Origin: Acetobacter conturbans
Lineage (GTDB): Bacteria; Pseudomonadota; Alphaproteobacteria; Acetobacterales; Acetobacteraceae
Reading direction: 5' to 3'
NCBI RefSeq assembly: GCF_011516755.1
Contig: NZ_WOSY01000001.1
Span: forward strand, 124,001 to 188,000
Length of the DNA stretch: 64,000 nt
Under the pieces are notes generated by a model, which worked only from the letters and a program-made list of their open reading frames with translations, made no database searches and was not told where the DNA came from. Below, piece after piece: positions 44,920-64,000 of the stretch. Position 1 is the stretch's first letter, and every line of letters starts with the position of its first letter. A program made the translations under genes and the position numbers.

Positions 44920-45111
44920 GGGCATGGCCTCCCGGATGGACCTGTTGGGTATGAACTGGTTGGTGGTGGATCTGGCGGGCGTTTCCGACGGAGTTATGCC
45001 GTTCGGACAGCGGCGGATGGAGACCAGAAAAGGGCGGCAGGCGCAACCCGATCGGCAGGGTGGTGATGATGGCACTTGATTCCGGCGCGTCGACGGGCCA
45101 AGAACGGCACT

Positions 45112-45807
45112 ATGTCACTCCTCGGCTCTCTCAAATTCGTCCTTTCCCGCCCGCATCGCGAGGCCTATCCGTTTCTCGGCGCATCAGGCGCTGTGGCGGT
45201 GGCGACGCATTATCTCGGGCGGCGGCTGAACTGCCCTGTCGTCAAGGGCGTCAGCACGGCGAGCGGCCTGTTCTTCGGGTTCTGCCTGTATTTCTTCCGC
45301 GATCCGCAGCGTGTCGCACCGCCGCGTGAGGGTCTGGTTCTGGCTCCTGCGGACGGACGCGTTGTGTCGATCGAGAAGATCGCGCCGCCTGTCGAGCTGG
45401 GCATGGGCGAGACTCCGGTCTGGCGCGTGGCGACGTTCCTGTCGGTTCTGAATGTGCATGTGAACCGCATGCCGGTCGCCGGAACGGTGACACGCATTGT
45501 TTATCACGAGGGCAAGTTCCTCAATGCCAGCCTCGACAAGGCTTCGACCGACAATGAGCGCAATGCGCTGAGCGTGACGCTGCCGGATGGCCGCATGGTC
45601 GCCGTGGTGCAGATCGCCGGACTTATAGCGCGCCGCATCGTCTGCTCCGTAAAGGAAGGCGACCGTCTGGAAGCGGGCGAGCGGTTCGGTCTGATCCGCT
45701 TCGGTTCACGCACGGACGTGTATCTGCCGCCGGGTATTGAGCCGCTGGTGGCGGTCGGTCAGACCATGATCGGGGGCGAAACTGTCGTGGCTGAACTTGC
45801 CTCCTGA
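45112..45807 (+). CDS. psd: Phosphatidylserine decarboxylase (short type)
   Basis: A 231-residue proenzyme. The autocleavage site is the GS in [13 protein letters not shown] near the C-terminus, where Ser becomes the pyruvoyl group. Earlier blocks are [18 protein letters not shown] and [16 protein letters not shown]. It makes phosphatidylethanolamine at the inner membrane. The shorter length marks the alphaproteobacterial/archaeal type. pssA follows after 47 bases on the same strand. Confidence 0.94.
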
Positions 45808-45854
45808 GTCGGCCTGCTTCCGTCCCTGTCCCGTGACGCCGGAGCGTTTTCTTC

Positions 45855-46724
45855 ATGGCTGAAATGACCACCAGACGCAGACGGCGTCTTCGCGGCGGAC
45901 GTTCTGCGCGCACGCGGGTTCGTGGTCCGTCGTTCAACCGGCTGGTACCGAATCTGCTGACCATGCTGGGCCTGTGCAGTGGGCTGATGGGGATGCGTTT
46001 CGCGCTGGACGGGCGCTTCCATCATGCCGCCATCGCGCTGCTGGTGTCGGCTGTGATTGACGGTCTGGACGGACGGATTGCTCGCCTTCTGCGCGGCTCG
46101 ACGCGGTTTGGGGCGGAGTTCGACAGTCTCTCGGACTTTCTGTGCTTCGGCGTTGCGCCGTCTTTCGTGCTTTATCTCTGGGCGCTCAAGGATGTGGGGC
46201 GATATTCGTTTCTGCCGTGCAGCCTGTTTACGGTTTGCATGGCGCTGCGTCTGGCCCGCTTCAACGCCAGCCTCGACGGTGTCGAGGAGCGGCCGAAATA
46301 TGCCAGCAACTTCTTCACCGGGGTCCCCGCACCTGCTGGCGCAGGACTGGCGCTGTTTCCGCTGTTTCTCGGTCTTGAGGCTGAAAAACTGGGCTATTCC
46401 GGCCTTTACGAGGCGACCCGCCTGCCCTGGCTGCCGATCCTGACTCTGACGGGAACGGCGTTCCTGCTGGTCTCCACGCTGCCTGTGTGGTCGTTCAAGA
46501 ACTTCAAGGTCCCGGCAAAATACGTGCTGCCGATGATGCTTGGGATGGGTGCCTGTGTGGTGGCGCTTGTGGCCGATCCGTGGGCTGTTCTGGCGGCGAT
46601 GGGCGTAGGGTATGTCGCGTTGCTGCCGGTCAGCCGGCTCAGCTTCAAGCGGCTGCGTAGTGCGGCGGAAGCGTTGCAGGAAGACGAGGATGAGCCTGAG
46701 CAAGTGCATGAGTCACGCGCCTGA
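45855..46724 (+). CDS. pssA: CDP-diacylglycerol--serine O-phosphatidyltransferase
   Basis: A 289-residue integral membrane enzyme with about eight helices. The CDP-alcohol phosphotransferase signature is complete: DGLDGRIARLLRG, then FGAEFDSLSDFLCFGVAP, with four Asp residues placing the Mg ion. It transfers phosphatidyl from CDP-DAG to serine; Psd then decarboxylates the product. The N-terminal 25 residues are Arg-rich and cytoplasmic, and the last 20 are acidic. Confidence 0.95.
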   Translation: MAEMTTRRRRRLRGGRSARTRVRGPSFNRLVPNLLTMLGLCSGLMGMRFALDGRFHHAAIALLVSAVIDGLDGRIARLLRGSTRFGAEFDSLSDFLCFGVAPSFVLYLWALKDVGRYSFLPCSLFTVCMALRLARFNASLDGVEERPKYASNFFTGVPAPAGAGLALFPLFLGLEAEKLGYSGLYEATRLPWLPILTLTGTAFLLVSTLPVWSFKNFKVPAKYVLPMMLGMGACVVALVADPWAVLAAMGVGYVALLPVSRLSFKRLRSAAEALQEDEDEPEQVHESRA

Positions 46725-48385: not shown

Positions 48386-48427
48386 CCAAAGGCTCCGGCC
48401 TTTGGTGGGTTTCAGGGCAAAGCCCTG
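48386..48427. repeat. REP-type double hairpin
   Basis: Two hairpins in a row: CCAAAGGC/GCCTTTGG (48386-48405) and CAGGGC/GCCCTG (48413-48427). The first shares its outer arms with the palindrome at 32411-32431. REP-like elements of this look are scattered between genes in many alphaproteobacteria. Confidence 0.65.
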
Positions 48428-48463
48428 AGAAAGACGCCCGCACTTAACAACAACAGAGCCTTA

Positions 48464-48626
48464 GAAGCTGTTTCAAAAACTCTCTGCTGGCGATCCGACG
48501 CGCGTTTTCCTCGCTCCAATACTCATGGCCCGCATGGCCGCTTCGCTTCATTACTCAAAAAACCATGCTGGTCGCGCACACCCACAGCAACTGTCCCGCT
48601 CAGCAGAGAGCTTTTGAAACAGCTGC
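48464..48626. repeat. Dispersed palindromic repeat, copy B
   Basis: About 160 bases with inverted ends: GAAGCTGTTTCAAAAACTCTC at the left and GAGAGCTTTTGAAACAGC at the right. Reverse-complemented it aligns in blocks with copy A at 39028-39178. No frame inside is conserved between the two copies. MITE-like by structure. Confidence 0.7.
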
Positions 48627-48656
48627 TTTTCTTTTTCATTCCGGCTGATCATGTCC

Positions 48657-49298: not shown

Positions 49299-49614
49299 TC
49301 CTGCAGCACCTTTTTCCTTCTGCTTTGTCACGCGCAAATCCGGTTCGCACCCTCGCGCTGGAGGTATCATATCCCACAATGCGCGTATCTGTAGAACGGG
49401 CAGCCAGCAGTGGTTCTGAAATCCTGTGCTGCTATGGACTCAGGCCCATGTCGGGCGATGTTTGTGCATTGGGTTCCGGTGAGATCAAGCTGCGTGGCGC
49501 GGCAATCTGGATTCTGAAAAATCCTGTTAGCATAGTCTGTTTTCGATTTTCACGATGACAGAAGTAGCTGTCTCCGGTAGCCTGCGCCTTGATGCCGGAG
49601 ACAGGGATCTGTTC

Positions 49615-51651
49615 TCAGAGATCCTTGGCGATCCGCAGGCCATCATAAATGGCCGCGTGGGTGTTGCGCGCCGCGACGGCGTCTCCGATGCGGAAGAGTT
49701 GGAACGATCCTTCAGGATTACGCACCACGGACTGCGGTTCGCCGCCGGTCAGCTGAGCGTGCGAGATTTCGCCAAGATTGACGGATTCCAGCTTGAGATC
49801 GAAATACAGTTCGTCGAGGGGCAGTGTGCCGTGATTGATGACCACCTGATCCACTCTGCGCTTCTTGTCCACGCCGCCATAATCACTGCCGACGGTGACG
49901 ATCAGAGCGTTGCCGTCCTTCTCGACGGAGCGGATGCGGTAGGTGACGGTGAATGTCACATCCTCTTTCTGCAGGGAGCGCATGTAGGGGACGAGGTTCA
50001 TGGCCATGACTTCCGGCGCGAACGAGCGGTCCGGTGTCATGATTTCGACTTTGGCTCCGGTGATGGCGATGATTTCCGCGGCCTGAAGGGCGGCATGGTC
50101 ACCCGCATCGTCAAAGATGAGCACGTTTGAACCGGGTTTGACGTCGCCTGCGATGATGTCCCACGAGGAGACGACGAGTTCGTTACCGCTGGAGAGGATT
50201 TCGGTGTGCGGCATCCCGCCGGTCGCGATGATGACCACGTCGGGGTTTTCGGCTTTTACCGTTTCGGCTTCCGCCCATGTGTTGAAATGGAAGGTGACGC
50301 CGTGCTTCTCGCACTGGCTCATGCGCCAGTCGATGATGCTGATCATCTCGCGTCGGCGGGGGCTGCGTGCGGTCAGGCGGATCTGGCCGCCCGGCTTATC
50401 GGCCAGTTCGAAGACAACCACCTCGTGACCGCGCTCGGAGGCGACGCGGGCGGCTTCCAGACCGGCTGGTCCGGCACCGACGATGACGACTTTGCGACGC
50501 CTGTCCGCTTTCCGGATGGTTTGCGGCATGGTCAGTTCGCGACCGGTGGCCGCGTTGTGGATACAGAAGGCGGCGCCCCCCTGATAGATACGGTCAAGGC
50601 AGTAGTTCGCGCCGACGCAGGGGCGGATATCTTCTTCGCGTTTCTCCATGATTTTGCGCACGAGGTGTGGGTCGGTCATGTGCGCGCGGGTCATGCCGAT
50701 CAGGTCCACCTTTCCGGCGGCGATCGCGTGCCGGGCTGTTGCGACATCCGGGATTTTGGCGGCGTGGAAGGTCGGGAAGCTGGTGGCGGCGCGCACTTCA
50801 CCGGCGAAGTCGAGATGGGGCGCGTTGGGCATGCCCTGAATCGGGATTACATCGGTCAGGCCCGGATCGGTGTCGATATGTCCGCGCACCACGTTCAGGA
50901 AGTCGATGAGGCCGCTTTCCGTCAGCTTGCGTGAAATCTGCAGCCCTTCTTCCTTGCCGATGCCGCCTTCGAGCATCTCGTCGCCGGTATAGCGGATACC
51001 GACGATGTAATCGGGGCCGACACGTTTGCGGATTTCCTTCAACACATCGAAGGTAAATCTCATGCGGTTGTCGAGGGAGCCGCCGTAGGGGCCATCGAGT
51101 TCGTTGGTGAGCGGAGACCAGAACTGGTCCATCAGGTGGCCGTAAGCCTGGAGTTCGATGCCGTCCATGCCTGCGGCTTTCATCCGTTCGGCGGCGTCGG
51201 CGTAGTCTTTAATGATGCGCTCGATATCCCAGTCTTCCGTTTTTTTCGGGAAGGCGCGATGGGCTGCTTCGCGGTGGTGGGACGGAGCGACGACGGGCAG
51301 CCAGAATTCCTTATCCCAGCGGGTGCGTCGTCCGAGATGGGTGAGTTGGATCATCACGGCCGCGCCCTGTTCGTGCACAGCGTCTGTCAGGTCTTTCATC
51401 CACGGAACAATCTCGTCTTTATAGACAAGGAGATTGTTGAACACGGGTGGACTGTCTTTCGAGACGGCGGCCGATCCGGCGGTCATGGTCATGGCGACGC
51501 CGCCTTTGGCGCGCTCCACATGATAGGCGCGGTAACGCTCCTTCGGCATCCCCTCTTCCGGATAGGCCGGCTCATGCGCCGTGACGATGATTCTGTTTCG
51601 TAACGTCAGGTTCTTGAGCTTGTAGGGCTGAAGAAGAGGGTCATTGGACAT
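49615..51651 (-). CDS. NADH:flavin oxidoreductase, TMADH/N-methylproline demethylase-like
   Basis: A 678-residue multidomain flavoenzyme. Residues 1-370 form an FMN-binding TIM barrel of the old-yellow-enzyme type (LTLRNRIIVTAHEPAYPEEG). The linker carries cysteines in RPCVGANYCLDRIYQGG and FCIHNAA for an Fe-S cluster. Residues 400-670 are an NAD/FAD-binding domain (KVVIVGAGPAGLEAARVA and VIIATGG). The pattern around CVGANYC matches proteins of the trimethylamine dehydrogenase and N-methylproline/stachydrine demethylase group, so demethylation of a small amine is plausible. GGAG lies upstream of MSNDPLL; a longer start would include a leader with a candidate operator. Confidence 0.83.
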   Translation of the reverse strand: MSNDPLLQPYKLKNLTLRNRIIVTAHEPAYPEEGMPKERYRAYHVERAKGGVAMTMTAGSAAVSKDSPPVFNNLLVYKDEIVPWMKDLTDAVHEQGAAVMIQLTHLGRRTRWDKEFWLPVVAPSHHREAAHRAFPKKTEDWDIERIIKDYADAAERMKAAGMDGIELQAYGHLMDQFWSPLTNELDGPYGGSLDNRMRFTFDVLKEIRKRVGPDYIVGIRYTGDEMLEGGIGKEEGLQISRKLTESGLIDFLNVVRGHIDTDPGLTDVIPIQGMPNAPHLDFAGEVRAATSFPTFHAAKIPDVATARHAIAAGKVDLIGMTRAHMTDPHLVRKIMEKREEDIRPCVGANYCLDRIYQGGAAFCIHNAATGRELTMPQTIRKADRRRKVVIVGAGPAGLEAARVASERGHEVVVFELADKPGGQIRLTARSPRRREMISIIDWRMSQCEKHGVTFHFNTWAEAETVKAENPDVVIIATGGMPHTEILSSGNELVVSSWDIIAGDVKPGSNVLIFDDAGDHAALQAAEIIAITGAKVEIMTPDRSFAPEVMAMNLVPYMRSLQKEDVTFTVTYRIRSVEKDGNALIVTVGSDYGGVDKKRRVDQVVINHGTLPLDELYFDLKLESVNLGEISHAQLTGGEPQSVVRNPEGSFQLFRIGDAVAARNTHAAIYDGLRIAKDL

Positions 51652-51710
51652 GGCGCACTCCAGATCCGGCGGGTTCGAATCGCGCATTACCGCTGTACAC
51701 AAGTGTCATC

Positions 51711-51734
51711 TTAACGTTCATATTAGAACGCTAA
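51711..51734. promoter_or_regulatory. Inverted repeat, candidate TetR operator
   Basis: TTAACGTTC, six bases, GAACGCTAA: nine-base arms with one mismatch, 60 bases ahead of the flavin oxidoreductase start. Size and symmetry fit a TetR-family operator, and a TetR gene follows the oxidoreductase on the same strand. Confidence 0.45.
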
Positions 51735-52170
51735 TTCGACATCTGTGAATATGTTTTTTTATCGTAACGTTTTGGGGTGCACGATGGATTTCTTCAGGCC
51801 ATTTCGGACCATACCGGCGGAGCAAACCCCTTCTGTCCGTTATGATATCCTGTTTTCAGAAAAGGATATTTACGAGTGGTGACGAGAACTTTCCCGTGGA
51901 CCAGCTACGATGACAGGCGAAGAAACGTGCAGGCAGGAGGGGTGTTTTGCGCGCCGGTTGGGGAAAATATTTCCCCATGCACCGGTTGTTGAGGGCTGTG
52001 CGCCTTGCGAGAGAGCGGGGATAAAGACGGCGTTACATTGGCGCACGACGGAACGCGGAGGCGCACGGTGGGCCCCCGAGGCGAGTTAGGCTGCTTTTCT
52101 GAGTTTGCCCTGTCGCGAAGACGGACGAATCAGCACGAGAGATATGCAGGATGAGCCCGGACCGTTTGTG
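51735..52170. other. Gap with a short palindrome
   Basis: About 435 bases upstream of the flavin oxidoreductase and downstream of the Hyf-like operon. GGGGAAAATATTTCCCC at 51960-51976 is a seven-base-arm palindrome. No gene is seen. Confidence 0.5.
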
Positions 52171-52665
52171 TCAGGCGTCCACGCGAGGAGGTGGCGGAGA
52201 CGTGGGCGACAGAAGCCGGATAATGCCGTCGAGAATCGCGTCCGGAGACGGGGGACAACCGGGAATGGCGCAATCCACGGATGCCTGTGCCTGCAACCCG
52301 CCCAGCACCGCGTAGTTTCTGGAAAAAGGACCACCGTCGATGGCGCAGGCTCCCACCGCCAGCAGGCCCTTGGGTTGCGGCATGGTTTCCCATGCCGCTT
52401 TCACCACGGGCGCCATCATGCGGGAACAGCATCCTGTCACCAGCAGCATGTCGGCGGTGCGCGGCGAATCGGCGAAGGTGACACCGGCTTCGGCCAGCCC
52501 GTAATTGCCGGTCATGAGGGCTTCCACCTCGAGCCCGCAGGCCTCGCAGCCGCCGCTGTCTACATGAAAGAAGACCAGCGGTGTGCGGGACACGACCGGC
52601 GGCAGCGCGGGGCCGGACGGCGCGAGAAGAGAAGTGAACAACGCACGCATCAAAACGGTGGGCAT
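52171..52665 (-). CDS. NuoB/HyfI-like Fe-S small subunit
   Basis: A 164-residue homologue of the small subunit of group 4 hydrogenases and complex I. Cysteines in CEAC (40, 43), GACAIDGG (107) and PGCPPSP (137) fit the proximal [4Fe-4S] ligands; the extra pair GCC (79, 80) is also present. GCPPSPDAILDGI is the standard family ending. It is the last gene of the six-gene Hyf-like operon. With a large subunit lacking its metal ligands, this cluster may still pass electrons, but to what is unknown. Confidence 0.85.
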   Translation of the reverse strand: MPTVLMRALFTSLLAPSGPALPPVVSRTPLVFFHVDSGGCEACGLEVEALMTGNYGLAEAGVTFADSPRTADMLLVTGCCSRMMAPVVKAAWETMPQPKGLLAVGACAIDGGPFSRNYAVLGGLQAQASVDCAIPGCPPSPDAILDGIIRLLSPTSPPPPRVDA

Positions 52666-52720
52666 CGTGACTCCCTCCCAGTTGTCCTGTCACGGAAACG
52701 GGGTGACAGCCTGTTCATTC

Positions 52721-54352
52721 TTACAGGTCGACGGCCGTGGCTGAAACACCGAATGAGCACCGCACACCATCAAATTCGGGAAGCGCGCATCCTGAGAGGG
52801 TGATTTCCTGCACGTCCTGCAAGACGGCGGCAGGATCTGCAATGAAGGAATGCGCCACCTGTCCGTCTTTCAGGATCACCACATGGCAGATGAGACCGTG
52901 CGGCCCTTCCACTGCGGCATAGCCTTCGCGGCGATCCATCGGCGTGCTGAGGGGGGCGAGCAGATTCAAGTCGGGGGCATCGCTTCTGGCGGCAAGCATG
53001 TCGCCGAGGGCCGCGATCATGCGCAGGCTTTCGGCGATATCCTCGAAGCGTATCCGGTTGCGGGTGGCGGCGTCGCCGTCCGTGGCGACGGGTGTGCGTA
53101 TTCGCAGGGCGCTGTAGCTGTCCATCGCCTGCCTGACGTCCGCACCGCGTCCGGCGGCGCGGCCGACCGGGCCGCTGAGGGACAGATCGGCGGCCAGAGC
53201 GCGGGAGACGACGCCCTTGCCGGCAAGACCGGAAGAGAGCGGTGCGCAGGCCTGCCAGCAATCGCGGATGCGGGGAAAATCGGTCGCGCCGAACGCGGCG
53301 ATTTCATCGCAGAGGGAGGCGAGCGCTTCCAGCACCATGCTGTCGCCGAGCAGGTCGCCCCCTGACAGGGCGAGGGTCACGCCACCGGGGGCGATGCAGT
53401 CCATCAGCAGGCGGCGTCCCAGTGTCGCTCCGCACACCCGCGACAGGGTTTCCCGCGCCCGATAGAGTCGCGTGGCGACGGGATCGGCCCCGGTGGCGCG
53501 GGCTGTCCGGGCCAGACAGGTGAGATGGGTATAGATGCGTTCGATTTCGCAGAGCAGGGCACGGATATGATCCGCTGCGGGTGAAATCTCCGTGCCTGTC
53601 GCCTTTTCGACGGCGGCGCTGAAGGCCCACTGGTGAGCGACCGCTGACAGGGCGCTGATCCGTCCGGCCAGTTCCGTGGCGCGGGTGAGCGTGACGCCGG
53701 CCATGCGTGAGGCCAGTCCCCGATGGGCAAAGCCGGTCAGTGTATCGACCGTGCGCACGCGCCCTTCCGCCACGCCGAGACGCATATGGATCGGGCTTTC
53801 AGGTCCGCCGGTGGCGGGACCGCGCGTGGCGAGCATGCCCTGTGCGGCGACGAGCGGATCGGGCGGCGGAAATTCCGGCATTCCAGTCGTGGTTGTGGCG
53901 GGCGGCGGCCGTTCGGTGAGTGGCGCGGTCACGGACCATGCACCGCGATCGACCAGAGGGCGGGCGTCGGATGCGTCCATCGCCTCCACGCCCCAGAGGT
54001 CGCGAATCATGCGTTCGAAGGGAGATGCTGCCCGACGGACGGCGGAGAACCCCCGGTAGCGCGGGCCGTCGAGGAGGTGAGAGGCCATGAGAGGCCGAAG
54101 GGCGGCCTCCGTTCCGGGCACGCCGTCACTGAACAGGGCGTGGACCATCGGGCCGTCACACCACAGGCCAAGAAAGATTGTGCTCTGGTCGTCCCGCAAC
54201 TGTTCGACGAGGTCGTACCACGCGCTTTCGCCGAGCAGGAAGCGCCAGGGCGTGTCGGTTTTCTCACCGGCACGGATTGTCTTTCTGGCTGACGGCGCTT
54301 CGGGCTCCTGTGGCACCAGCGCGCCGCCGAAGAGGATGGGGGGGATGTTCAT
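52721..54352 (-). CDS. HyfG-like NuoCD subunit without NiFe ligands
   Basis: A 543-residue fused NuoC (residues 30-145, FERMIRDLWGVEA) and NuoD/large-subunit part. The N-terminal ligand block of group 4 hydrogenases reads RICGICSVAH; here it is RISALSAVAH (231-240), both Cys replaced by Ser (233, 236). The C-terminal DPCxxC pair is also absent; the end reads FGVSATAVDL. The HRG motif (residues 210-212) and the AVEK segment are kept. So it belongs to the fold but cannot carry a NiFe centre. The ATG overlaps the preceding stop (ATGA). No start earlier in the frame is likely, as the extension is Arg/Pro-rich antisense-like sequence. Confidence 0.87.
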   Translation of the reverse strand: MNIPPILFGGALVPQEPEAPSARKTIRAGEKTDTPWRFLLGESAWYDLVEQLRDDQSTIFLGLWCDGPMVHALFSDGVPGTEAALRPLMASHLLDGPRYRGFSAVRRAASPFERMIRDLWGVEAMDASDARPLVDRGAWSVTAPLTERPPPATTTTGMPEFPPPDPLVAAQGMLATRGPATGGPESPIHMRLGVAEGRVRTVDTLTGFAHRGLASRMAGVTLTRATELAGRISALSAVAHQWAFSAAVEKATGTEISPAADHIRALLCEIERIYTHLTCLARTARATGADPVATRLYRARETLSRVCGATLGRRLLMDCIAPGGVTLALSGGDLLGDSMVLEALASLCDEIAAFGATDFPRIRDCWQACAPLSSGLAGKGVVSRALAADLSLSGPVGRAAGRGADVRQAMDSYSALRIRTPVATDGDAATRNRIRFEDIAESLRMIAALGDMLAARSDAPDLNLLAPLSTPMDRREGYAAVEGPHGLICHVVILKDGQVAHSFIADPAAVLQDVQEITLSGCALPEFDGVRCSFGVSATAVDL

Positions 54353-55578
54353 GAGCGGGGCTCGGGGGTGCCTGAATGAATGGGCGTCGGTTGGGTGTTC
54401 GGGCGGCTCGCCGGCACGCGGGATGGGGCAACGCGGGCTGGCGCATGGTGGGTGGCGATGAGACGGGAGACGGGACGCAGGGCCGGAAGGGCGGCGGCGA
54501 TCAGCAGCAGGGTGAGCGGGAGGGATATGCCCGCCACCAGCGTCACGGCGCACAGCAGGGCGCAGAAACCGGGCAGAAGCAGCAGCCAGCGGGAAATGAC
54601 GGTGGCTTTCGCGGACGTGGCAGGAGTGCCTGCGAGCCATGGGGTGGCGAGCAGTGGCCCGAGCAGGGCGAGGTCGGCGACCAGCGGATGGATAACACCT
54701 GCGGCGATGGCGGCGAGACCGAGGCTGGCCTGCGCGATGGCGTCGATCTGTCCGGCGCGAGAAAGGCGCAGGCGGAGCGTGGCCACGACCAGCGTTGCCA
54801 GCCCCAGGACAAAGAGCGTGCCTCGAAACGCGAACATGGTGGGAGGTGGCAACGGGAATGTTGCGAGAAGGGCCGCGACGGCCAGTGTCGCTGTCGCGGC
54901 GCGCAGCAGTTCCGGCGCGTTACCTGGGCGGGATGGGGACGGGTTGCCTCGGGAAAGTGCGGCGGGAAACAGGCCCGCGAGCAGGCAGAACCCGAGAGCG
55001 GCGAGGATGCCCTCTACGGTCAGGTTGGGGTGGAGGAAGCCGCTGAACACCAGCAGCGCGCCGGTTGCGGTGCGGCGGAGGGTGTTCCAGCCATTCTGGC
55101 CACGACCGGCGCCCGTATCGAGCAGGATCACTGCGAGGATAGGGGCCGAGAGCAGCATCCCTGCCCGCGCGACCGGTTCTTCCAGCAGCATGGCGAGGGA
55201 CAGGAGGCCGGTTGTCCAGAACGGCACGGTGTCGCGGGCGACGAGGGCGCGGTCTTCCTCGGGCTGGGGCGGGGCGAAGCACTGCGAGACCAGTCCGGCA
55301 TGAAGCAGCAGGCAGCCGATGGTGGCCAGTGGCATTTCGACCATCCAGCCGAATTCGACGCCTTCCGCTGCCGTGGCGCTGAGATAGAGCGACAGCGGCA
55401 CGTTGAGGGCACTCAGGGTGAAGGACACCACGGAGAAATTGGCCGCAAGCTGGGTAAAGCGGGTGCGTGCGTCTTCCTCGCCGGTTCGGGCATCAGGCGC
55501 GAAGATGGCGATGATCGCACCGGCGAGAAACGGCCAGACGAGGCTGAGGAACAGGACGATGTCGGCAGTGATGAGCAT
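54349..55578 (-). CDS. HyfF-like membrane subunit
   Basis: A 409-residue polytopic membrane protein with about eleven helices, placed between the HyfE- and HyfG-like genes as hyfF is. It is shorter than HyfF (about 526 residues) and the antiporter Lys/His residues expected in helices 7, 8 and 12 are not evident. The C-terminal 35 residues are proline-rich (RPNTQPTPIHSGTPEPRS). Overlaps both neighbours by one to four bases. Assignment rests on position and hydrophobic profile more than motifs. Confidence 0.7.
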   Translation of the reverse strand: MLITADIVLFLSLVWPFLAGAIIAIFAPDARTGEEDARTRFTQLAANFSVVSFTLSALNVPLSLYLSATAAEGVEFGWMVEMPLATIGCLLLHAGLVSQCFAPPQPEEDRALVARDTVPFWTTGLLSLAMLLEEPVARAGMLLSAPILAVILLDTGAGRGQNGWNTLRRTATGALLVFSGFLHPNLTVEGILAALGFCLLAGLFPAALSRGNPSPSRPGNAPELLRAATATLAVAALLATFPLPPPTMFAFRGTLFVLGLATLVVATLRLRLSRAGQIDAIAQASLGLAAIAAGVIHPLVADLALLGPLLATPWLAGTPATSAKATVISRWLLLLPGFCALLCAVTLVAGISLPLTLLLIAAALPALRPVSRLIATHHAPARVAPSRVPASRPNTQPTPIHSGTPEPRS

Positions 55579-56312
55579 CAGCGCGTCTCCCTGCCCTGCT
55601 CTGCGCTTCCCGGTCCTGTGGTCTCCGGCTCCACGACGCCCTCAGCAGTGCCTTCTGGCACCAGGCTTTCCTGCCTCGTTCCGCCCTGACGTGCGCTTCC
55701 CGGCACCGGAGCTTCCACCGGTGCTTTCATGCGCAGCAAAGAGAGGCGGCTTGCCAGCCATGTGCCTGCTCCTGCCAGCAGCAGGACGCACGCGCCGATC
55801 AGCCACCCGGCGTAAGGCGTGCGGATGTTGGCGGCGGTCAGGAGCAGTCCGTTGCAGGCGGTGAGAAGACCCGCGAACTGGTATCGGACGCCGGAGCGGA
55901 GGGACAGCGTGACGAGGCCGATGAAGGTCACGGCGAGAGCAACGGTGACGACGGCGGCATCCATCGGCACGAAGGGCACGGCGAGGATGGCAGGCGGCTG
56001 GAGCAGGTCCTCTGACGGCAGACTGAGGCTGGCGGCGACGAGCATGACGAGCGAGAGAGCCAGTGCGCTGGCGATGCGGGGGCGGCCTGCGGTGTCCTCG
56101 GTATAGCGGCTCAGCCACCATGCGGGCGCGACGGAGACGGTCAGCGCGGTGATGGCGGTGAACAGGATGACGGGAGGCAATGGCGTGCTGGCGCTGTGGC
56201 GCAGCAGGACGATGGAGAGCGCCGTGAGGATGCCGAGCGCGGGCGTGGCGGCGAGGCCAGCGAGAATGGTGAACAGGGCCAGCAGGGGCAACAGGGCAAG
56301 AGCGAGCGTCAT
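55578..56312 (-). CDS. HyfE-like membrane subunit
   Basis: A 244-residue membrane protein with six to seven helices, then a 50-residue polar tail (PVPGSARQGGTRQE onward). HyfE is a NuoK-like subunit; the length of the membrane part (about 195) and position fit. No conserved Glu pair was placed with confidence. The start ATG overlaps the HyfC-like stop. The proline/glutamate tail is unusual for the family. Confidence 0.68.
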   Translation of the reverse strand: MTLALALLPLLALFTILAGLAATPALGILTALSIVLLRHSASTPLPPVILFTAITALTVSVAPAWWLSRYTEDTAGRPRIASALALSLVMLVAASLSLPSEDLLQPPAILAVPFVPMDAAVVTVALAVTFIGLVTLSLRSGVRYQFAGLLTACNGLLLTAANIRTPYAGWLIGACVLLLAGAGTWLASRLSLLRMKAPVEAPVPGSARQGGTRQESLVPEGTAEGVVEPETTGPGSAEQGRETR

Positions 56313-57325
56313 GGTCTGGCGGTCTCCCGCGCAGGACCGTCCGCCTCCGCGCTGTCTGCAGGCTGGCCGGTTTCTGTCGGCATGAGGCGGGCTGCGGTCA
56401 GCAGTTGCAGGGCCAGCAAGGCAAGCAAAAGAGCTGCCGCTCCCCGGAGACGCGTGCTGGTGGCGGAGCCGATGACGAAGGCGCGGCCAGCGGCCAGCAT
56501 TGTTCCGAGCAGAAAGCAGCGGACGAGCCAGCAGACCAGTCCAAGCAGGAAGGCGCCCGTGCCGCTGAGCACGGTCGGGCTGGCCGCGATCCGGGCCAGA
56601 GAGCCGGGCCATATCAGATCGCCCGCGAGGGTGAGCCATGTCAGCGCCACGATATCGCGGGTCAGCATCAGGAGGGCATCGTCGCTGCTCTGCCCATCCG
56701 CTTCGGTGTCCGCGCGTGGGGCGGGATCGACAGCAGCGAGGAGCGCGGCACCGGCAAGCACGAAAGGCGCGCCATTGACGAGCGGGTTGCTGTGACTGAG
56801 GTCGGCGAGCACGGCGGCGAGCGTGGTTGTCGCACCGGCGCTGAACAGCAGGGCCGTGATGAGAAAGAGCGTCGGCAACACCAGCGCCATAGTGACGGCG
56901 CGACCAAAGGCAGCGGCAGAGGCTTCGGCGGGTTGCGTCAGGGCGGGCAGAAGGCAGCCGGTGCGGGCAAGCACCAGAAGCAGAGCGATCAACGTGAGGT
57001 CGGACCATGACGCGGTGATGAGTCCGAGACTGAAGGCCGGGACGAGGAGGGCCGCGCAGAGAGAGGCCGCGAGTGAAAACGGGGCGACGACAGGTGTGAG
57101 GAACTGGCCGATCAGCGGCGGTGCGTCGCTGTGGTGAACGGGAGGGAGCGTGCCCCACAGGCGGGAGATGGCGAACCAGCGGCGCAGGACGGGGGGCGCG
57201 GCGATACCGGATGCGCGGGCCGAGAGGAAGCTGCGAAAGCCGCTCAGAAAGGGCGCGAGGAGGATGACGGCGAGCAGTTGCAGTCCCGTGAGGAGGATGG
57301 CGAGAGCTATCTGGGAGAATGTCAT
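56309..57325 (-). CDS. HyfC/NuoH-like membrane subunit
   Basis: A 338-residue membrane protein with about eight helices, recognised by the NuoH/HyfC-like opening PFLSGFRSFLSARASG and PPVLRRWFAISRLWG. The acidic/basic loop that in HyfC reads roughly AExxRxPxD..HLELTM is reduced here to VDPAPRADTEADGQ and DDALLMLTRDI, so the charged bridge to the redox arm is changed. Part of the operon by four-base overlaps. Confidence 0.78.
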   Translation of the reverse strand: MTFSQIALAILLTGLQLLAVILLAPFLSGFRSFLSARASGIAAPPVLRRWFAISRLWGTLPPVHHSDAPPLIGQFLTPVVAPFSLAASLCAALLVPAFSLGLITASWSDLTLIALLLVLARTGCLLPALTQPAEASAAAFGRAVTMALVLPTLFLITALLFSAGATTTLAAVLADLSHSNPLVNGAPFVLAGAALLAAVDPAPRADTEADGQSSDDALLMLTRDIVALTWLTLAGDLIWPGSLARIAASPTVLSGTGAFLLGLVCWLVRCFLLGTMLAAGRAFVIGSATSTRLRGAAALLLALLALQLLTAARLMPTETGQPADSAEADGPARETARP

Positions 57326-59109
57326 GACGGGAGAACCGTCAGACAGAGGGCGAGCGCTGCGAGAACGAGGACGAGGGCTGCGCCGTAATCCGCGAGGGGC
57401 GTGGCAAGGGCGATGAGGGTGCGGAGGCGGCGCAGGGTACGGCCCGTCCTGTGGCGCAGCCCGGCTCTCCGCCAGAATGGGAGGGTGCGAACTGGAAACA
57501 GCACCGCCTTCAGGCTGGAGGGGGCCATGTCCAGTCCGGACCAGATGAGGGGTTCACCGAACGGAAGGTGCGGTTCGCGGGTCGGCAGACCGCCGAGCCA
57601 GGGCACGGTTTCACCGGCGGTGATGCCGGGGAGGATGTCACGTCGGGCGGGCGTGGAGGAGCGTCGGGCGCGAATGGCCTGTTCCTGCAACAGGCGGATG
57701 GCCAGCAGGATGAGCAGCAGCAGGACCGTCACGCCGAGCGGCATCCACGATGAAAGACCATCGGGGCCGACGAGGGTGAAAAGAGGCGGTCGGGGCGCAT
57801 CGGTTTCGCCGCCTGTCAGCCGCGTCAGGAAAGGCGTCGTGAGGCGGAGCACACCGCCCGGCACGCAGGCGGTGAGACAGGCGAACAGCAGTGTTCCGAG
57901 AACCGGGAACAGGGCGATCCATGTGGCGTCCGGGCAGGCCGCCATGCGGGGACTGCGGGCGCTTCCGAGCAGCAGCAGCGCGGTCAGCCGGAGTACGGCG
58001 AGGCCCGACAGCGCGACGATCACCCCGAGGCCCAGCAGAAAGGTCAGGGATGGCAGGGCGGCAGTGAAGCCGTCCGGCAGCAGGCCGAGCGCTGTCTCGA
58101 CGAGCAGCCACAGGACGGAGAATCCACCGGTCGGAGGCAGGAGCGTCAGGGCCAGCAGGGCAACGGCGAGCAGTCCGGACAGGCGCGGTGCGAAGAGGAT
58201 CAGGCCGCCGAGGCGACCGAGATGGTCGGACCCAGCGCCTTCCGTGACCAGTCCGCCCGCGCAGAGAAAGGCGGCGGCGATGGGCCAGAGAGTGATGAGG
58301 TCGAGGGTCAGGACGCTGGCAGCGGCGTGGGCTGTCAGGATGGAGCCTTCGGTCATGGCGAGCATGAGCAGGCCGAGCGCCATGATGGCGAGGGCGACTG
58401 GCAGCATGGCGAGACCGGCGATGGCGCGACTGCCCCGCGGCGTGGTCAGGGCGATGGCGATCCGGCACAGGGCGAGGCACATGCCGCCGCCCAGCAGGAG
58501 GGCTGTCATACCGGGTGTGGCGATGGTCTCGGGGCGCAGGAGGGCGCGGCAGAGCACCAGCACGCCGCAGCCTGCTTCCAGCAACGGGGCGACGGCGCAA
58601 TCAGGGGTGCGGCGTCCCTCCCCTGTGGCGCACAGGAGGGCGGCCATCACGGCCATCCACGGTGACGATGCGGGCAGCGGGCCGGGCGCGCAGGCGGCGG
58701 CGAACAGGAGGGCGCGCAGGCATCCGGCGGCTGCGTTCCGGCGACCGGGCAAGGCGAGCATGAGGGCGGTGCTGCCTGTGACCATCAGGGAGGCGGGATG
58801 ATCGGCGAGGGCCGCGAGGCAGGCGGCGGCGGATGCGAGCGGCAGGCGACCGCCGGGGCGCACCCAGCGCTCGGCGCAACAGCCGATGGTGGCGAAGACG
58901 ATCAGGAAGAGGCTACCAGCGGAATCGAATCTGAAGCCGGGAATGGAGAAGCCCGTGGCTGAGTGGCTTTCGCTCCACGGCAGGGCCGCGAAGGCACAGG
59001 CCGCCGCGACCAGCCAGACGCTCTGGCAGGCGAGGCGCTGCTGGCCCGGCGGCAGGCCGATCCATCGCTCAGGCGTGGCCGAAAGCGCGCCCGCGAGAAG
59101 GACGGGCAA
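57322..59109 (-). CDS. HyfB/NuoL-like antiporter-type subunit
   Basis: About 595 residues with some fourteen helices. The antiporter module is recognisable at FLCAGGLVTEGAGSDHLGRLGGLILFAPRL and LLPPTGGFSVLWLL. The lysine of the usual HxxxK helix preceding it appears replaced (LITLWPIAAAF). The start is a problem: in this frame only TTG (59109) or CTG codons exist. An ATG in the next frame overlapping the parC stop would need a one-base shift to join ([10 protein letters not shown]). Either an unusual start or a frame error is likely. First gene of the Hyf-like set, right behind parC. Confidence 0.75.
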   Translation of the reverse strand: MPVLLAGALSATPERWIGLPPGQQRLACQSVWLVAAACAFAALPWSESHSATGFSIPGFRFDSAGSLFLIVFATIGCCAERWVRPGGRLPLASAAACLAALADHPASLMVTGSTALMLALPGRRNAAAGCLRALLFAAACAPGPLPASSPWMAVMAALLCATGEGRRTPDCAVAPLLEAGCGVLVLCRALLRPETIATPGMTALLLGGGMCLALCRIAIALTTPRGSRAIAGLAMLPVALAIMALGLLMLAMTEGSILTAHAAASVLTLDLITLWPIAAAFLCAGGLVTEGAGSDHLGRLGGLILFAPRLSGLLAVALLALTLLPPTGGFSVLWLLVETALGLLPDGFTAALPSLTFLLGLGVIVALSGLAVLRLTALLLLGSARSPRMAACPDATWIALFPVLGTLLFACLTACVPGGVLRLTTPFLTRLTGGETDAPRPPLFTLVGPDGLSSWMPLGVTVLLLLILLAIRLLQEQAIRARRSSTPARRDILPGITAGETVPWLGGLPTREPHLPFGEPLIWSGLDMAPSSLKAVLFPVRTLPFWRRAGLRHRTGRTLRRLRTLIALATPLADYGAALVLVLAALALCLTVLPS

Positions 59110-59155
59110 CAGGATGAAAAGCGTCAGGATGGGAGAATGTCCTGGCTGGCTGGGT

Positions 59156-61375
59156 TCATACTTTCTTCATCGCCCAGGGCGGCGCGGCCTTGCCGGGGGC
59201 GGCGCGCTTACCAACCCACGGTTCCAGCTCAGTGAAGCTGCGGACCTTCACAGCGCCGGGCCAGAGCAGGCCCTGCGTGGCGCTGAACACGACGGCCTGA
59301 CGCAAACCGAGCTTCGCACCGCCATCGGGGTATTTCTGGAGCGTGACGCCCAGTCCTCTGCCCAGAACGGGAAGCTGGTCGATCGGGAAGACAAGCAAAC
59401 GCTTCTCGCCGCCATAGACCGCGACGTGATCGCCCTGCGCAGGGATGCAGAGGCGCGCGCTTTCGTCGCCCTTGAGGTTGAGAACCTGCCGCCCGCCTCG
59501 TTTTTCGGCGGCGAAATCGGCATCGGCCACGATCATGCCGCGCCCGACGCTGGAGGCGACAAGACGTTTCGTGCCCTCCTCGATGACGAACACGGAGAGA
59601 ATGCTCTCGTCATTGGTGAGATCCATCAGCAGGCGCACGGGCTGGCCGTCTCCGCGCCCGCGCGGAAGGTCACCGGCGTTGACGGTGAAGGCGCGACCGT
59701 CCGTGGCGAAGAAGCAGACGCGATCCGTGCTCTGGCAGGGCAGCGCGAGGCGCAGGCTGTCGCCTTCCTTGAACTTCTGGGCGCTGGCGTCGATGCCGTG
59801 CCCTTTTATGGCGCGGACCCAGCCCTGTTCCGAAAGGATCATGGTCAGCGGTTCGCGCTCGACGAGCGTGGCGGCGGAGAGGTCGATGGGCGCAGGAGGC
59901 GCACCGAGCGTGCTGCGGCGTGCGCCAAGCGGTCCGGAACCGAAGTTCTTGCCGATCTCCTTCACCTCGGCGGCGATGCGGGACCAGCGGAGCGTCTGGT
60001 CGGCCAGCAGGGTGCGGAGCGTGTCGCGTTCGGCGGCGAGCGCGTCGTGTTCCTTGCGGATCTCAATTTCTTCCAGCCTCCGCAGGCTGCGCAGACGCAT
60101 GTTGAGGACGGCTTCGGCCTGCATGTCCGTGAGGCTGAAGGTCTGCATCAGGCTGACTTTGGCGTCGTCTTCCTCGCGGATGATGCGGATCACCTCGTCG
60201 AGATTGAGATACACGGCGAGGAAGCCTGCGAGGATTTCGATGCGTTTTTCAACGGCGGCGAGGCGATGGGCGCTCCGGCGTTCCAGCACCACGAGGCGGT
60301 GGTCGAGCCATGCCTGCAACACGGACCGCAGATCGAGCACGCCGGGGGCGCGGTCCGGGCCGATGACGTTCATGTTGAGCGAGAATCGGCTTTCGAGCTG
60401 GGTGGCCCTGAACAGCGTCTCCATCAGCACTTCCGGCGCGATGGTGCGGTTTTTCGGCTCCAGCACGAGGCGGATGTCGGCGGAACTTTCGTCGCGGATA
60501 TCGGCTAACAGGGGCAGTTTCTTCTGCACCAGCAGATCGGCGATCTGCTCGATCAGGCGGGATTTCTGCACCTGATAGGGGATCTCGGTGACCACCACCT
60601 GCCATGTGCCGAAACGTCCCTGCTCGACCTGCCAGCGGGACCGGATGCGGAAGCCGCCGCGTCCGGTCTCGTAGGCCTTCAGGATGGCGTCCGAATCCTC
60701 GACGATGATGCCGCCGGTGGGGAAATCCGGGCCGGGCATATGCTGGAGCAGGTCGGCGTTGGTCGCATCGCGGTTGCGGATCAGCAGCAGGGCGGCGGCG
60801 CAGATTTCACCGGCATTGTGCGGCGGAATGCTTGTGGCCATGCCGACGGCGATGCCCGCTGCGCCGTTGGCCAGCAGATTCGGGAAGGCGGCAGGCAGCA
60901 CGATCGGCTCGGCGTCCTCACCGTCATAGGTGGGACGGAAATCGACGGCATCGTCGTTGATGCCTTCGAGCAGCGCCTGCGCCACCTTGGTGAGCCGGGC
61001 TTCGGTATATCGCATGGCAGCGGCGTTATCGCCGTCCACGGAGCCGAAATTGCCCTGCCCTTCCACGAGCGGGAATCGGACGGCGAAGTCCTGCGCGAGC
61101 CGCACGAGGGCCTCGTAGACCGAGGCATCGCCGTGTGGATGGTATTTACCGATCACGTCACCGACGACGCGTGCACACTTTTTAAACCCGGATGCGGGAT
61201 CAAGGCGAAGCTGGTGCATGGCAAAGACGAGGCGTCTGTGCACTGGCTTGAGACCGTCCCGCACATCCGGCAACGAGCGGGACATGATGGTGGACAGTGC
61301 GTAAGCCAGATACCGCTCGCTCAATGCGTCGGCGAGCCGGGTGTCCTCAATATGGCCTTCGAACGTGTCACTCAT
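59156..61375 (-). CDS. parC: DNA topoisomerase IV subunit A
   Basis: A 739-residue type IIA topoisomerase subunit that decatenates chromosomes. The catalytic tyrosine is Tyr123 in [11 protein letters not shown]; the breakage-reunion region, coiled-coil ([26 protein letters not shown]) and a C-terminal beta-pinwheel (residues about 500-720) follow. The region matching E. coli Ser80 reads [12 protein letters not shown] with Ala84 at that position. Length and DASVYE context favour ParC over GyrA. The stop overlaps the candidate ATG of the Hyf-like operon. Confidence 0.93.
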
Positions 61376-61420
61376 GTCCTGTGTCCTCCGTCGTGCGCAC
61401 CAATAACGGAGACACAGACT

Positions 61421-61873
61421 TTGGCCAACGTCCTGACCGGTTTTTCACGCAGTCCGACACTTCGCCTTGCCTCCCTGATGGCCGCGCTCGGCGGTCTTGC
61501 TGCCTGTTCACCGGCTGATCGCTACCTCCGGACCGGTGAACAACTCGCTTACAGCGGCTTCACGGCGCATGCGGCAGACACGACGGCCCGCTACGAGATG
61601 ATGAATCTTCTGCCCGCCGGCATGATGACCTATCGCCCGACCAGCACGGGGCCGGTCTATCTGTATGCCGACCGCATCGGTTGCGGGTGTGTCTACATGG
61701 GCGGTCAGGCCGCGTTCATGGACTACAAGAGCAAGACTCTGACCGGAGTTCCCAGTCAGGCCGCGATGACGGCGGAAATCAACCAGCATCCCGGCTGGGA
61801 CTGGACCGTGTGGTCGAGCAATGCCGATCCGGGACCGAACCAGCCCAAACACATGATCGGCGCGGAATGGTGA
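61421..61873 (+). CDS. Lipoprotein of unknown function
   Basis: A 150-residue predicted lipoprotein starting at TTG, nine bases after GGAG. The signal (LRLASLMAALGGLAAC) ends in a lipobox, and the mature part begins SPADRYLRTGEQLAYSGF. A later pair of cysteines in RIGCGCVYMGG could bind metal or form a disulfide. No family recognised. Divergent from parC, 45 bases away; convergent with the glycosidase gene. Confidence 0.75.
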   Translation: MANVLTGFSRSPTLRLASLMAALGGLAACSPADRYLRTGEQLAYSGFTAHAADTTARYEMMNLLPAGMMTYRPTSTGPVYLYADRIGCGCVYMGGQAAFMDYKSKTLTGVPSQAAMTAEINQHPGWDWTVWSSNADPGPNQPKHMIGAEW

Positions 61874-61877
61874 CCGT

Positions 61878-64000
61878 TTAGCAGTTCTCTAACCGTCGCA
61901 GACGTGGCCCGGATCGCCAGAGTTCCAGTCGTGGCGCGCTCAGGAGACCGCTTTTCTCGCGTCGTTCTCCTTCCACGACAGGATGATCCTTGTAGAATCG
62001 TCCTGCTGCAGTGCCTCGCCAGACCAATTCCAGCAAGCCTGCGGGGAGTGTCACCCCCGCGGGTAATGCGAAGGCGGTCTGATCGGTCAGGCTGATCCCG
62101 CATGGAAGATCATTGAGGTGACAGGCCAGAGCTCCTCTGACGTCCGGGATCACCAGATACCAGCGATAATGGAGGTCCGATGGTCTGTCGCATGCACCGG
62201 TTTCGCCGGGTTGCGGGAGGATGGAACAGGTCGTTTTGGTCCGGTCTATTGTTCCCAGATCGAGTCTGTATGTCCCCTGCCCTTCGGTTCCCATGCCCTG
62301 CTCTTCCAGCGACATCCCGGTCTGGACAGGCTGCCAGCCATTGCGCGGATCTTCCGTGAATTGCCAGCCTTCCGAAAGGCTCACCGTGGGCGCATTCGGG
62401 AAGGGCATCCATTCCTGCACGCCGTCCAGTTTCCCTGTTGCGGGATCGTTGTCGGCCGGTGCGCTTTCTTGCCATTCAAGACAAAGCATTTCATGCGGGC
62501 GCATTCGGATGGCGGCGGTCTCTCCGGCGGCCAGTGTTCCCCATGAGCGTCCTGTCCAGTTGAGGGGGCCATCCTCCCTGCCAGCCTCTGCGGGGACGGG
62601 TTCCCATGCTTTCAGGTGCCGGGGATTTTCAGAGACTCCAAGCACAAGGTCACGCCACCGGCCGGTTTCATTCTGAACAGCCAGCCGGGCGCGTGCGCCC
62701 CCATCGGCAGTGTCGGACAGGCGATGCCAGGTGATGCGACCGCCGAGGGGAGGCTTCTGCTTTGCATGAACCGCGATGTTTTCGGGCTGGTCTGGCGGCG
62801 AGAGGCACGCGACGTTTCGAAGCGTCGCGGCAAGACGCCATGCCTCCGCGCCGATGGTCTCTTCGGACACACCCCGCAGCATGTTTTCCAGTGCCGTTCT
62901 ATTGGTGGAGAACTCGATGTTGTCCGGGGTTTCCTGTCCGCAAAGTGGCACTAATGGCCGCTCTTTTATGGTGCTGGTCAGAATTTCGCACCCCCTCCGG
63001 GCACCGAAGGCCGACAAAGTGGTGAAGCTTGCCGCATGTTCAAGCCACCCTGCACCCGGCAGGATGACGGTCGTAATCCCGGCCTCGATCTGACCTTGCT
63101 GCAACTGGCTTTCGTCGATGATGACAAAAGGACAGCCTGCTTCATCCAGAGCCTGCGCCCATGCTCCGAATATACGCGCCGAGGCGGCATCGACCGGACC
63201 TGCCCACAGATCGGCCAGCGGATACAGGAGTGCGACAGTACGGACCGGGACGCCATCTTCCAAAAACTTTGAAACCTGCAAAAGCTCGTTTGAAAGAAGG
63301 GCCATATGCTCCCACCATGGCTGTAGATTGAAGCCGGGTGGAAAATCCTGACGGGGGTCGAACATTCCTGCTGGTGTTCTGTTCACGACGCCGGGGAGGT
63401 AGAGCGCGTGCAGCAATATACGCCGCGCGCCGCACAGGAGATGTCGCAGGGACTGTGTACGGAGGCGTGCGGGCGTGAGATCCCACTGCCCCAGCAGAGA
63501 CGCCCGCCCTGCTTCGCGTCCGGTAGAGTATTGTTCGACCGTGCAGCGTGAGCGTCCGTTCGCCCGTGCGACTGAGTCGCCGAGGATCACTGAGAGCTGA
63601 GGCACATAGTCTGCGGCATCGACCGTGGTTGACTTACGGTAACGGTCCACGCCGAAGTGATCTGTTCCCGGCATCACGCGCGGGTCCATTCCTCCGAGCC
63701 CTTTGCGGGGTGACCATGCTCCGACATGCGGCAGCAGTTCGTGTCCGCTCAGCCCCACTCCATGTTCCCGGCACCACCGTGACAGCGTTCCGAAAAATGC
63801 TTCATGCATGCGCGATGAGTAGAGTCTGAAAAACTCAAGACGCAGACGCGAGGAGTCTTCGTCTTCTTCCTCCGCAAGAGCGGCAAGATGGCGCAGGCTC
63901 AGCCCGCGCGTCAATAAACTCTCGTCCCAGAGAATGCTGTTGCCGACAAAACCGCATCGCTCGGTCCAGTCCTGAAAACCGGCATAGGGGTGATCGAAGA
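61878..64000 (-). CDS. Glycosyl hydrolase, GH106 (alpha-L-rhamnosidase)-like (partial)
   Basis: About 707 codons are visible; the frame is open at the right edge, so the N-terminus is missing. The visible part begins in the catalytic domain (DHPYAGFQDWTERCGFVGNS, then LRLEFFRLYSSRMHEAFFG and HELLPHVGAWSP). It continues through a middle domain with ALLYPLADLWAGPVDAA and ends in a beta-sandwich with W/Y-rich strands (YRWYLVIPDVRGAL). The layout resembles large GH106 or related GH42-like enzymes that release rhamnose or other sugars from plant or surface glycans. No signal can be seen because the start is outside the window. Family identity is moderate. Confidence 0.65.
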   Translation of the reverse strand, partial: FDHPYAGFQDWTERCGFVGNSILWDESLLTRGLSLRHLAALAEEEDEDSSRLRLEFFRLYSSRMHEAFFGTLSRWCREHGVGLSGHELLPHVGAWSPRKGLGGMDPRVMPGTDHFGVDRYRKSTTVDAADYVPQLSVILGDSVARANGRSRCTVEQYSTGREAGRASLLGQWDLTPARLRTQSLRHLLCGARRILLHALYLPGVVNRTPAGMFDPRQDFPPGFNLQPWWEHMALLSNELLQVSKFLEDGVPVRTVALLYPLADLWAGPVDAASARIFGAWAQALDEAGCPFVIIDESQLQQGQIEAGITTVILPGAGWLEHAASFTTLSAFGARRGCEILTSTIKERPLVPLCGQETPDNIEFSTNRTALENMLRGVSEETIGAEAWRLAATLRNVACLSPPDQPENIAVHAKQKPPLGGRITWHRLSDTADGGARARLAVQNETGRWRDLVLGVSENPRHLKAWEPVPAEAGREDGPLNWTGRSWGTLAAGETAAIRMRPHEMLCLEWQESAPADNDPATGKLDGVQEWMPFPNAPTVSLSEGWQFTEDPRNGWQPVQTGMSLEEQGMGTEGQGTYRLDLGTIDRTKTTCSILPQPGETGACDRPSDLHYRWYLVIPDVRGALACHLNDLPCGISLTDQTAFALPAGVTLPAGLLELVWRGTAAGRFYKDHPVVEGERREKSGLLSAPRLELWRSGPRLRRLENC

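Follow-up and report, generated by a model that had tools for sequence, protein, structure and literature searches.

The 64,000-nucleotide stretch of Acetobacter conturbans DNA analysed here (hereafter the window) carries on its minus strand, at positions 52171-59109, a six-gene operon in the order hyfB-C-E-F-G-I. Judged from its sequence, the product of the operon is a derived Hyq complex with six subunits, related to complex I and to formate hydrogenlyase (FHL). The new part of the finding is the loss, read from aligned residues, of the proton path in three of its membrane subunits, B, C and F. We see about an even chance that the complex is a member of the complex I superfamily that has turned non-pumping and non-catalytic and retains one iron-sulfur (Fe-S) cluster, the proton path having apparently been lost stepwise in one lineage of Acetobacteraceae, where partial intermediates survive, and all six subunits having stayed under selection, in small genomes devoid of complex I too.

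Proton-path residues and selection

The residues that define the proton path in B, C and F, whose roles are those given in the complex I literature, were scored in 15 alignment columns (five in B, four in F and six in C), with D/E and K/H treated as equal. Loci with the full set keep the equivalents of NuoL E144, K229, H338, K342 and K399 (the last as Glu) in B, of NuoM E144, K234, H348 and E407 in F, and six acidic residues in C. The window matches a single column of the 15. No equivalent was found in its B for any of the five NuoL residues; the E-channel glutamate of C is lost, as is the VDNPATHLELTMVHE loop of canonical HyqC; and E presents TCNG where the canonical sequence is SENG, with the glutamate replaced. 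The initial annotation of this DNA had glimpsed only the missing pump lysine of the HyfB-like protein. That loss is confirmed as one of many, and the earlier interpretation, which is partly supported overall, is extended here to a far larger change.

The same columns divide the loci compared. The pump-less loci (n=52, window included) match in 0-3 columns, 50 of them having been read in all 15, L100 in 6 and L106 in 10. Of the full-set loci, 16 could be read in every column, and these score 14 each except L069 at 12; the F lysine column is unaligned in every full-set row, which sets the ceiling at 14, and the F and E open reading frames (ORFs) of L069 are mis-assigned (its F was scored E-A-). 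Two loci are intermediate, L057 with 8 of 15 columns and L099 with 1 of 4, the latter read in F only, as was L095. The partial locus L043 and L089, which encodes a true HyfG, were excluded from the residue counts. As the labels full-set and pump-less derive from the column score itself, the observation consists in the wide gap, from 3 to 8-14, which is no independent test. Profile bit scores were tried as a marker of type and rejected: the pump-less locus L107 (genome G006) reaches 401 bits, within the full-set range. The pump-less counts therefore rest on the residues read in the 52 loci.

Eight of the full-set loci come from outside Acetobacteraceae. When 385 genomes were searched across the class, 31 non-Acetobacteraceae genomes were found to carry the large subunit, and 12 of these were fetched; all 12 loci, from other alphaproteobacterial families, keep the residue set in the readable columns (L146 is without B, and the fifth B column is shifted by one position, in the reference row as well). 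Outside Acetobacteraceae, 20 of 20 scored loci are full-set, L043 being too short to score.

At a conservation of at least 85%, B, C, E and F together hold 27 conserved columns in 39 pump-less loci, none of them ionizable; the corresponding figure for 14 canonical loci (the intermediate L057 included, L069 left out) is 437, with 80 ionizable. G of the same 39 loci has 55 conserved columns, 28 of them ionizable, and canonical G has 156. The retention of ionizable columns in G and not in B, C, E and F argues that the loss falls mainly on the membrane arm. Counted by charge class rather than by residue, the 39 loci have no acidic column at this threshold and two basic ones, C R269 and E R189.

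The profile searches proposed in the initial annotation gave clear matches for G and I and a weak one for B; C, E and F found no convincing match in Pfam or NCBIfam and were assigned by profile comparison, with structure models added for C and F. G matches E. coli FHL subunit 5 (E 7.9e-20) and also resembles the 49 kDa subunit of complex I, and I matches MbhJ (6cfw_J, E 5.2e-26) and resembles NuoB. The Pfam match of B is below cutoff (2.1e-4) and its NCBIfam match, given in Table 1, far under the curated cutoff. In hhalign comparisons of the pump-less with the canonical set, E values run from 1.3e-9 to 2.1e-96 (G 2.1e-96, I 5.4e-50, the other four in Table 1; a further comparison for F gave 1.5e-6), which argues that all six subunits are homologous between the two sets. 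The AlphaFold model of C (predicted local distance difference test, pLDDT, 88.7; three full-set rows in its alignment) has E. coli FHL 7z0s_D (HycD/NuoH) as its best Foldseek match, with E 1.8e-8 and template-modelling (TM) scores of 0.73/0.80. The model of F (pLDDT 87.3; no full-set row in its alignment) has best matches to complex I antiporter-like subunits at 2.4e-3, none reaching 1e-3, and Mrp and FHL relatives are also among the 50 Foldseek matches listed. C and F are thus predicted from these models to fold like NuoH and NuoL/M/N, respectively. F is shortened, with 409 amino acids versus 487 in HyqF of Rhizobium johnstonii.

Phylogeny places the window large subunit within Hyq. Among 72 large subunits placed in one tree, the 52 pump-less Acetobacteraceae loci form one clade (support 96/99), nested among full-set loci of the same family; the branching immediately outside this clade, where the intermediate L057 and L099 stand with the full-set L095, L097 and L098, is unresolved. 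A second tree, of 58 rows, likewise keeps its 39 pump-less loci together (100/99) and groups L089 with E. coli HyfG. Both trees carry warnings of long branches, L052, L063 and L088 being among the pump-less rows concerned. The simplest reading of these trees is a single loss, probably reached stepwise.

Selection was estimated as the dN/dS ratio (omega) by the Nei-Gojobori method; base composition leaves such comparisons rough. For the window against L034, omega is 0.17 for B, 0.17 for C, 0.11 for E, 0.16 for F, 0.09 for G and 0.08 for I, with bootstrap upper limits up to 0.233 and a large dS of 1.6-2.7. Other pairs give 0.03-0.16 (L034/L046), 0.01-0.04 (L050/L051) and 0.13-0.36 (the close pair L038/L039). 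Altogether 12 of 13 pump-less pairs have a finite omega, within 0.01-0.45, L074/L076 being saturated, and the highest upper limit among the four bootstrapped pairs is 0.62 (B, L038/L039). The parC control lies at 0.02-0.09. Full-set pairs span 0.05-0.47, values of 1.6 for E and 0.51 for F in L069/L070 having been set aside as products of mis-assigned ORFs; against this range, no greater relaxation is visible in the pump-less loci. The operon is kept in genomes of 1.7-2.0 Mb, and no internal stop was found among the G matches listed. These comparisons indicate that all six genes are under purifying selection, not neutral, in agreement with the proposal in the initial annotation of an Ehr/Hyq-type complex that lacks metal ligands and is kept by selection.

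The [NiFe] site, the Fe-S cluster and complex I

At the positions of the E. coli HyfG ligands C243, C246, C517 and C520, the window large subunit has S, S, S and A. The ORFs and these columns bear out the description of a hyfB-C-E-F-G-I operon with RISALSAVAH in place of the ligand motif. Intact ligands in homologues, which might have exposed a sequencing error, were found in none of 71 loci (17 full-set, 2 intermediate and 52 pump-less): not one has the four-Cys set, and L048, L052 and L053 have a single Cys each at one ligand column. HypD (PF01924) has no match in the genome of the window (G000, 99.94% complete) and is absent from 34 of the 41 genomes searched; the seven that have it are G029 (control), G210, G123, G251 and G277 (pump-less), G076 (with the intermediate L057) and G185 (full-set). 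With the ligands missing and HypD absent, a [NiFe] cofactor is not to be expected in the complex of the window. The control G029, an Acetobacteraceae genome of 1.9 Mb, has in L089 a true HyfG with DPCYSC in addition to HypD.

The loss of the [NiFe] site had been taken for an event of this operon. Passages of a study of Azorhizobium already reported in 2012 that HyqG misses the CxxC motifs (PMC3357923), and across the sequences aligned here the absence is a known trait of the Hyq family, neither an Acetobacter event nor a new loss. The same source, in the passages concerned, names three HyqG cysteines as fully conserved (PMC3357923). Those cysteines (R. johnstonii C259, C491 and C497) are A, V and V in the window. 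Their status as completely conserved is not borne out, since they are present in 11, 10 and 8 of the 17 full-set loci, and they are not family-defining.

The small subunit presents a different picture. Window I has the CxxC + C + C pattern at the cluster positions, as initially described, together with three other cysteines. All four [4Fe-4S] cysteines are kept in 17 of 17 full-set loci, in both intermediate loci and in 48 of the 52 pump-less loci, 39 of these with I beside G and nine with I elsewhere (five unlinked); L103 was counted by eye after misalignment, and the CxxC-bearing gene was taken where a genome has two. That some genomes might have lost the small subunit was considered and ruled out, the gene being displaced or unlinked. 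In the genus coded g32 (L073, L078 and L079) it lies about 4 kb beyond G, with a probable TonB-type receptor gene (identified by eye) between them, and in G008, G259, G149, G037 and G046 it is unlinked to the operon. The displaced and unlinked I genes read (L117-L119, L122, L123 and L125-L128; from g32, G008, G259, G149, G037, G046 and G126) all keep the four cysteines. Genome G290 has three genes of family PF01058 (NuoB/HyqI), and the two read (L108 and L120) have four cysteines.

In 18 genomes there is one strong large-subunit match and no second at 1e-20. Each of the 18 also has a single PF01058 match, on the same contig and within about 5 kb of the operon. The lack of a second PF01058 gene argues that these genomes have no NuoB and therefore no complex I. 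In 11 of them the pump residues were read, and all 11 are pump-less; the other seven share their genus codes. The genome of the window has two more Complex1_49kDa (NuoD-type) genes, one each on contigs C7 and C18, and these two separate genes suggest that it probably has two complex I operons. Opposite the NuoD Tyr that we take to be a quinone-site residue, the window has Ala, in a pairwise alignment with 7ar7_D only, the motif not having been found in E. coli NuoCD for wider comparison.

Operon layout and known relatives

The features are collected in Table 1. The first five genes overlap, as initially described for all six, by 4 bases (B/C), 4 bases (C/E), 1 base (E/F) and 4 bases (F/G); G and I have a gap of 55 bases between them. 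The reported absence of HyfA, HyfD and HyfH holds: no candidate ORF for any of them lies between the six genes, and no CxxCxxCxxxC motif occurs in the six frames of 47001-63000. The operon consists of the six genes only, without the NADH-oxidising module (NuoE, F, G) or NuoI.

Table 1. Features of the operon and its neighbours in the window
Feature	Position	Strand	Details and basis
B, HyqB/HyfB-like (NuoL-type antiporter subunit)	57322..59109	-	595 amino acids, TTG start, provisional; NCBIfam hydrogenase 4 subunit B E 7.3e-9, residue columns, hhalign 1.2e-29
C, HyqC/HyfC-like (NuoH-type)	56309..57325	-	338 amino acids; hhalign 1.8e-29, AlphaFold/Foldseek, column listing
E, HyqE/HyfE-like	55578..56312	-	244 amino acids; hhalign 3.6e-9, column listing
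F, HyqF/HyfF-like (NuoM/N-type)	54349..55578	-	409 amino acids; hhalign 1.3e-9, AlphaFold/Foldseek
G, HyqG/HyfG-like large subunit (NuoC+NuoD-like), NiFe ligands absent	52721..54352	-	543 amino acids; Pfam Complex1_49kDa 8.7e-16
RISALSAVAH replacing RICGICSVAH, G residues 231-240	53633..53662	-	Sequence and alignment columns
G C-terminal segment (last 14 codons) replacing the DPCxxC region	52724..52765	-	Alignment columns
I, HyqI/NuoB-like small subunit, cluster Cys C40, C43, C107, C137	52171..52665	-	164 amino acids; Oxidored_q6 2e-23
parC-type gene (topoisomerase IV/gyrase A family), outside the complex	59156..61375	-	Pfam DNA_topoisoIV 1.1e-142; 46 bases upstream of B
psd- and pssA-type genes, convergent neighbours, outside the complex	45076..46646	+	Pfam PS_Dcarbxylase 7.6e-47, CDP-OH_P_transf 1.5e-22; about 5.5 kb off

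The proposed tie to parC survives as adjacency only. A same-strand parC neighbour, at 46 bases to about 1 kb, occurs in 9 of 14 loci of the window genus and in none of the other fetched loci; the association is local to Acetobacter, and a functional link was dropped. As to the hyqR and NifA/sigma-54 control that goes with Hyq, the gene directly upstream of the window operon is parC and not a regulator gene. The convergent pssA-psd pair neighbours 37 of the 52 pump-less loci (the window and 36 others) versus none of the 19 full-set or intermediate loci (tblastn, several of these having been fetched with little downstream DNA). A functional link to phosphatidylethanolamine synthesis was likewise dropped and the neighbourhood taken as shared descent; apart from this pair, no conserved neighbour stands beside the operon as a candidate partner. 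In the window, a TetR-type regulator gene and a gene for a 695-amino-acid Oxidored_FMN/Pyr_redox_2 protein (48657-51702) separate the operon from pssA-psd, unlike in L034 and L046, where pssA directly adjoins the operon. The genome measures 3.88 Mb, and the closest named relatives of G are from Acetobacter.

The nearest described system is the 'endo-hydrogenase' operon hyqRBCEFGI of Azorhizobium caulinodans, which passages of its description give as lacking hyfA and hyfD (PMC2650096); we compare it from that published description, its genes not being among the fetched loci. In the pRL11 operon of R. johnstonii 3841 (L068) these six genes follow a gene for a helix-turn-helix regulator. Both share with the window the six subunits, their order and the lack of HyfA, HyfD and HyfH, as well as a large subunit without CxxC and a small subunit with four cluster cysteines. 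They differ in what the window has lost: Hyq of the rhizobia, Azospirillum and other proteobacteria compared here keeps the residues of the proton path in its B, C and F subunits, and with them the glutamate of HyqE and the loop of HyqC. In addition, the three named HyqG cysteines are gone from the window, its B and F are shorter, and parC, not a regulator gene, stands in front. A second large/small subunit pair was seen on the opposite strand of L042 (19103-21273), in a betaproteobacterial metagenome-assembled genome, about 7 kb from the Hyq operon and running off the locus end. E. coli hydrogenase-4 (Hyf) and FHL have homologues of B, C, E, F, G and I in the same gene order; the window differs from them in lacking the [NiFe] site, HyfA, HyfD and HyfH in the operon and HypD in the genome. 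Among the open-access matches listed, no report of a hyf/hyq operon in acetic acid bacteria was found, which is a weak negative.

What the complex may do

Our preferred reading, to which we give a little less than even chances, is that of a non-pumping, non-hydrogenase membrane complex with one Fe-S cluster that serves as a redox relay or redox sensor. As suggested by the sequences, the complex would assemble and would neither make or use H2 nor pump protons by the known mechanism; a G-I head with its single cluster would be anchored on a passive membrane base and, at a guess, exchange electrons with a partner.

Several observations weigh against this reading. No electron donor or acceptor gene was seen travelling with the operon in the loci compared. 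Conservation of what was once the active-site pocket is lower in the pump-less clade than among full-set loci, which makes for a poor fit to a specific redox substrate. The genus coded g100 (L064, L071 and L072; three of three species fetched) retains the operon although three of its four cluster cysteines are gone, with an omega of 0.37-0.41 for I versus 0.10-0.15 for G, and genome G001 has lost one of the four; these losses argue that the cluster is dispensable in some lineages. The pump-less loci are, moreover, far more diverged than the canonical ones. Single columns are less surely aligned in them, and fewer conserved columns of any kind are to be expected. C R269, which aligns with NuoH K274, and E R189 are basic in at least 85% of rows. 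Finally, some pump-less pairs are weakly constrained, as is L054/L058, with the highest omega of the 12 finite pump-less pairs (0.22-0.45).

Some of these points favor a pure scaffold, a substantial though lesser possibility, in which the shape of the complex is kept, for example to stabilise another membrane complex, with no redox or transport activity, and the cysteines only hold the G-I fold. The pocket and the pump are both relaxed, and g100 keeps its complex despite the loss of three cluster cysteines. There is also a precedent within the family: passages of PMC10715153 describe 'deranged' bc1 and COX1-like proteins of Acetobacteraceae retained after loss of cofactor ligands, for which structural roles are proposed. 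These are, as here, respiratory proteins kept without their ligands, in complexes unrelated to Hyq; the passages do not treat the Hyf/Hyq operon, and a word beginning 'hydrogenase' occurs once in the main text. The scaffold is opposed by the retention of all four cysteines in 48 of 52 pump-less loci, even where the gene has moved, and by the 18 genomes with a single PF01058 gene by the operon, in which complex I is not there for a scaffold to stabilise.

That the complex still moves ions in some other way, through a conformational mechanism or through new residues in place of the proton path, appears improbable. The membrane subunits are under purifying selection, the C R269 position is charged in 38 of 39 rows, and the window genus has charges of its own in predicted helix cores (for example, B R188 and C D224, each with an ionizable residue in all 14 rows of the genus). 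Set against these are the absence of any acidic column at 85% in B, C, E and F of the 39 loci, with two basic ones, the shortened F, and the disappearance of a recognised redox site to drive a pump. The ion role by a complex I mechanism that was initially entertained is made unlikely by the losses in B, C and F. Ehr complexes are defined in passages of PMC6349859 by a hydrogenase-like core without Ni- and Fe-binding residues. The window shares with them the group 4-like core and the absent metal-binding residues. Ehr complexes are suspected of using antiporter-like subunits to couple charge translocation to redox chemistry; those of the window are without the known residues, and such coupling is argued against here by the residue losses.

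A decaying remnant without function, which the fast-diverging membrane subunits and lost catalytic residues might suggest, is very improbable given an omega of 0.01-0.45 in 12 pump-less pairs, a highest bootstrap upper limit of 0.62, retention in the 1.7-2.0 Mb genomes and the lack of stops among the G matches listed. A working hydrogenase, as claimed for Azorhizobium Hyq from the hyq deletion phenotypes that passages of two papers report (PMC2650096, PMC3357923), is close to refuted for the window locus, given the absent ligands and HypD, the A, V and V at the three named cysteines, and a passage in which the Azorhizobium authors themselves call the NiFe centre of HyqG 'uncertain, if not unlikely' (PMC3357923).

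If the reading of a non-pumping, non-catalytic complex is true, these bacteria would offer a natural experiment that separates the complex I fold from its chemistry. The clade seems to have dropped both pumping and catalysis yet kept assembly, in bacteria akin to others that are easily grown. The question is hard to ask otherwise, as the loss of pumping or catalysis normally leaves a complex without known use. Since pump-less members can be set beside partial intermediates and relatives with the full set, the order of loss is testable, and the answer would bear on the claim of H2 activity by a Hyq complex that has no [NiFe] site.

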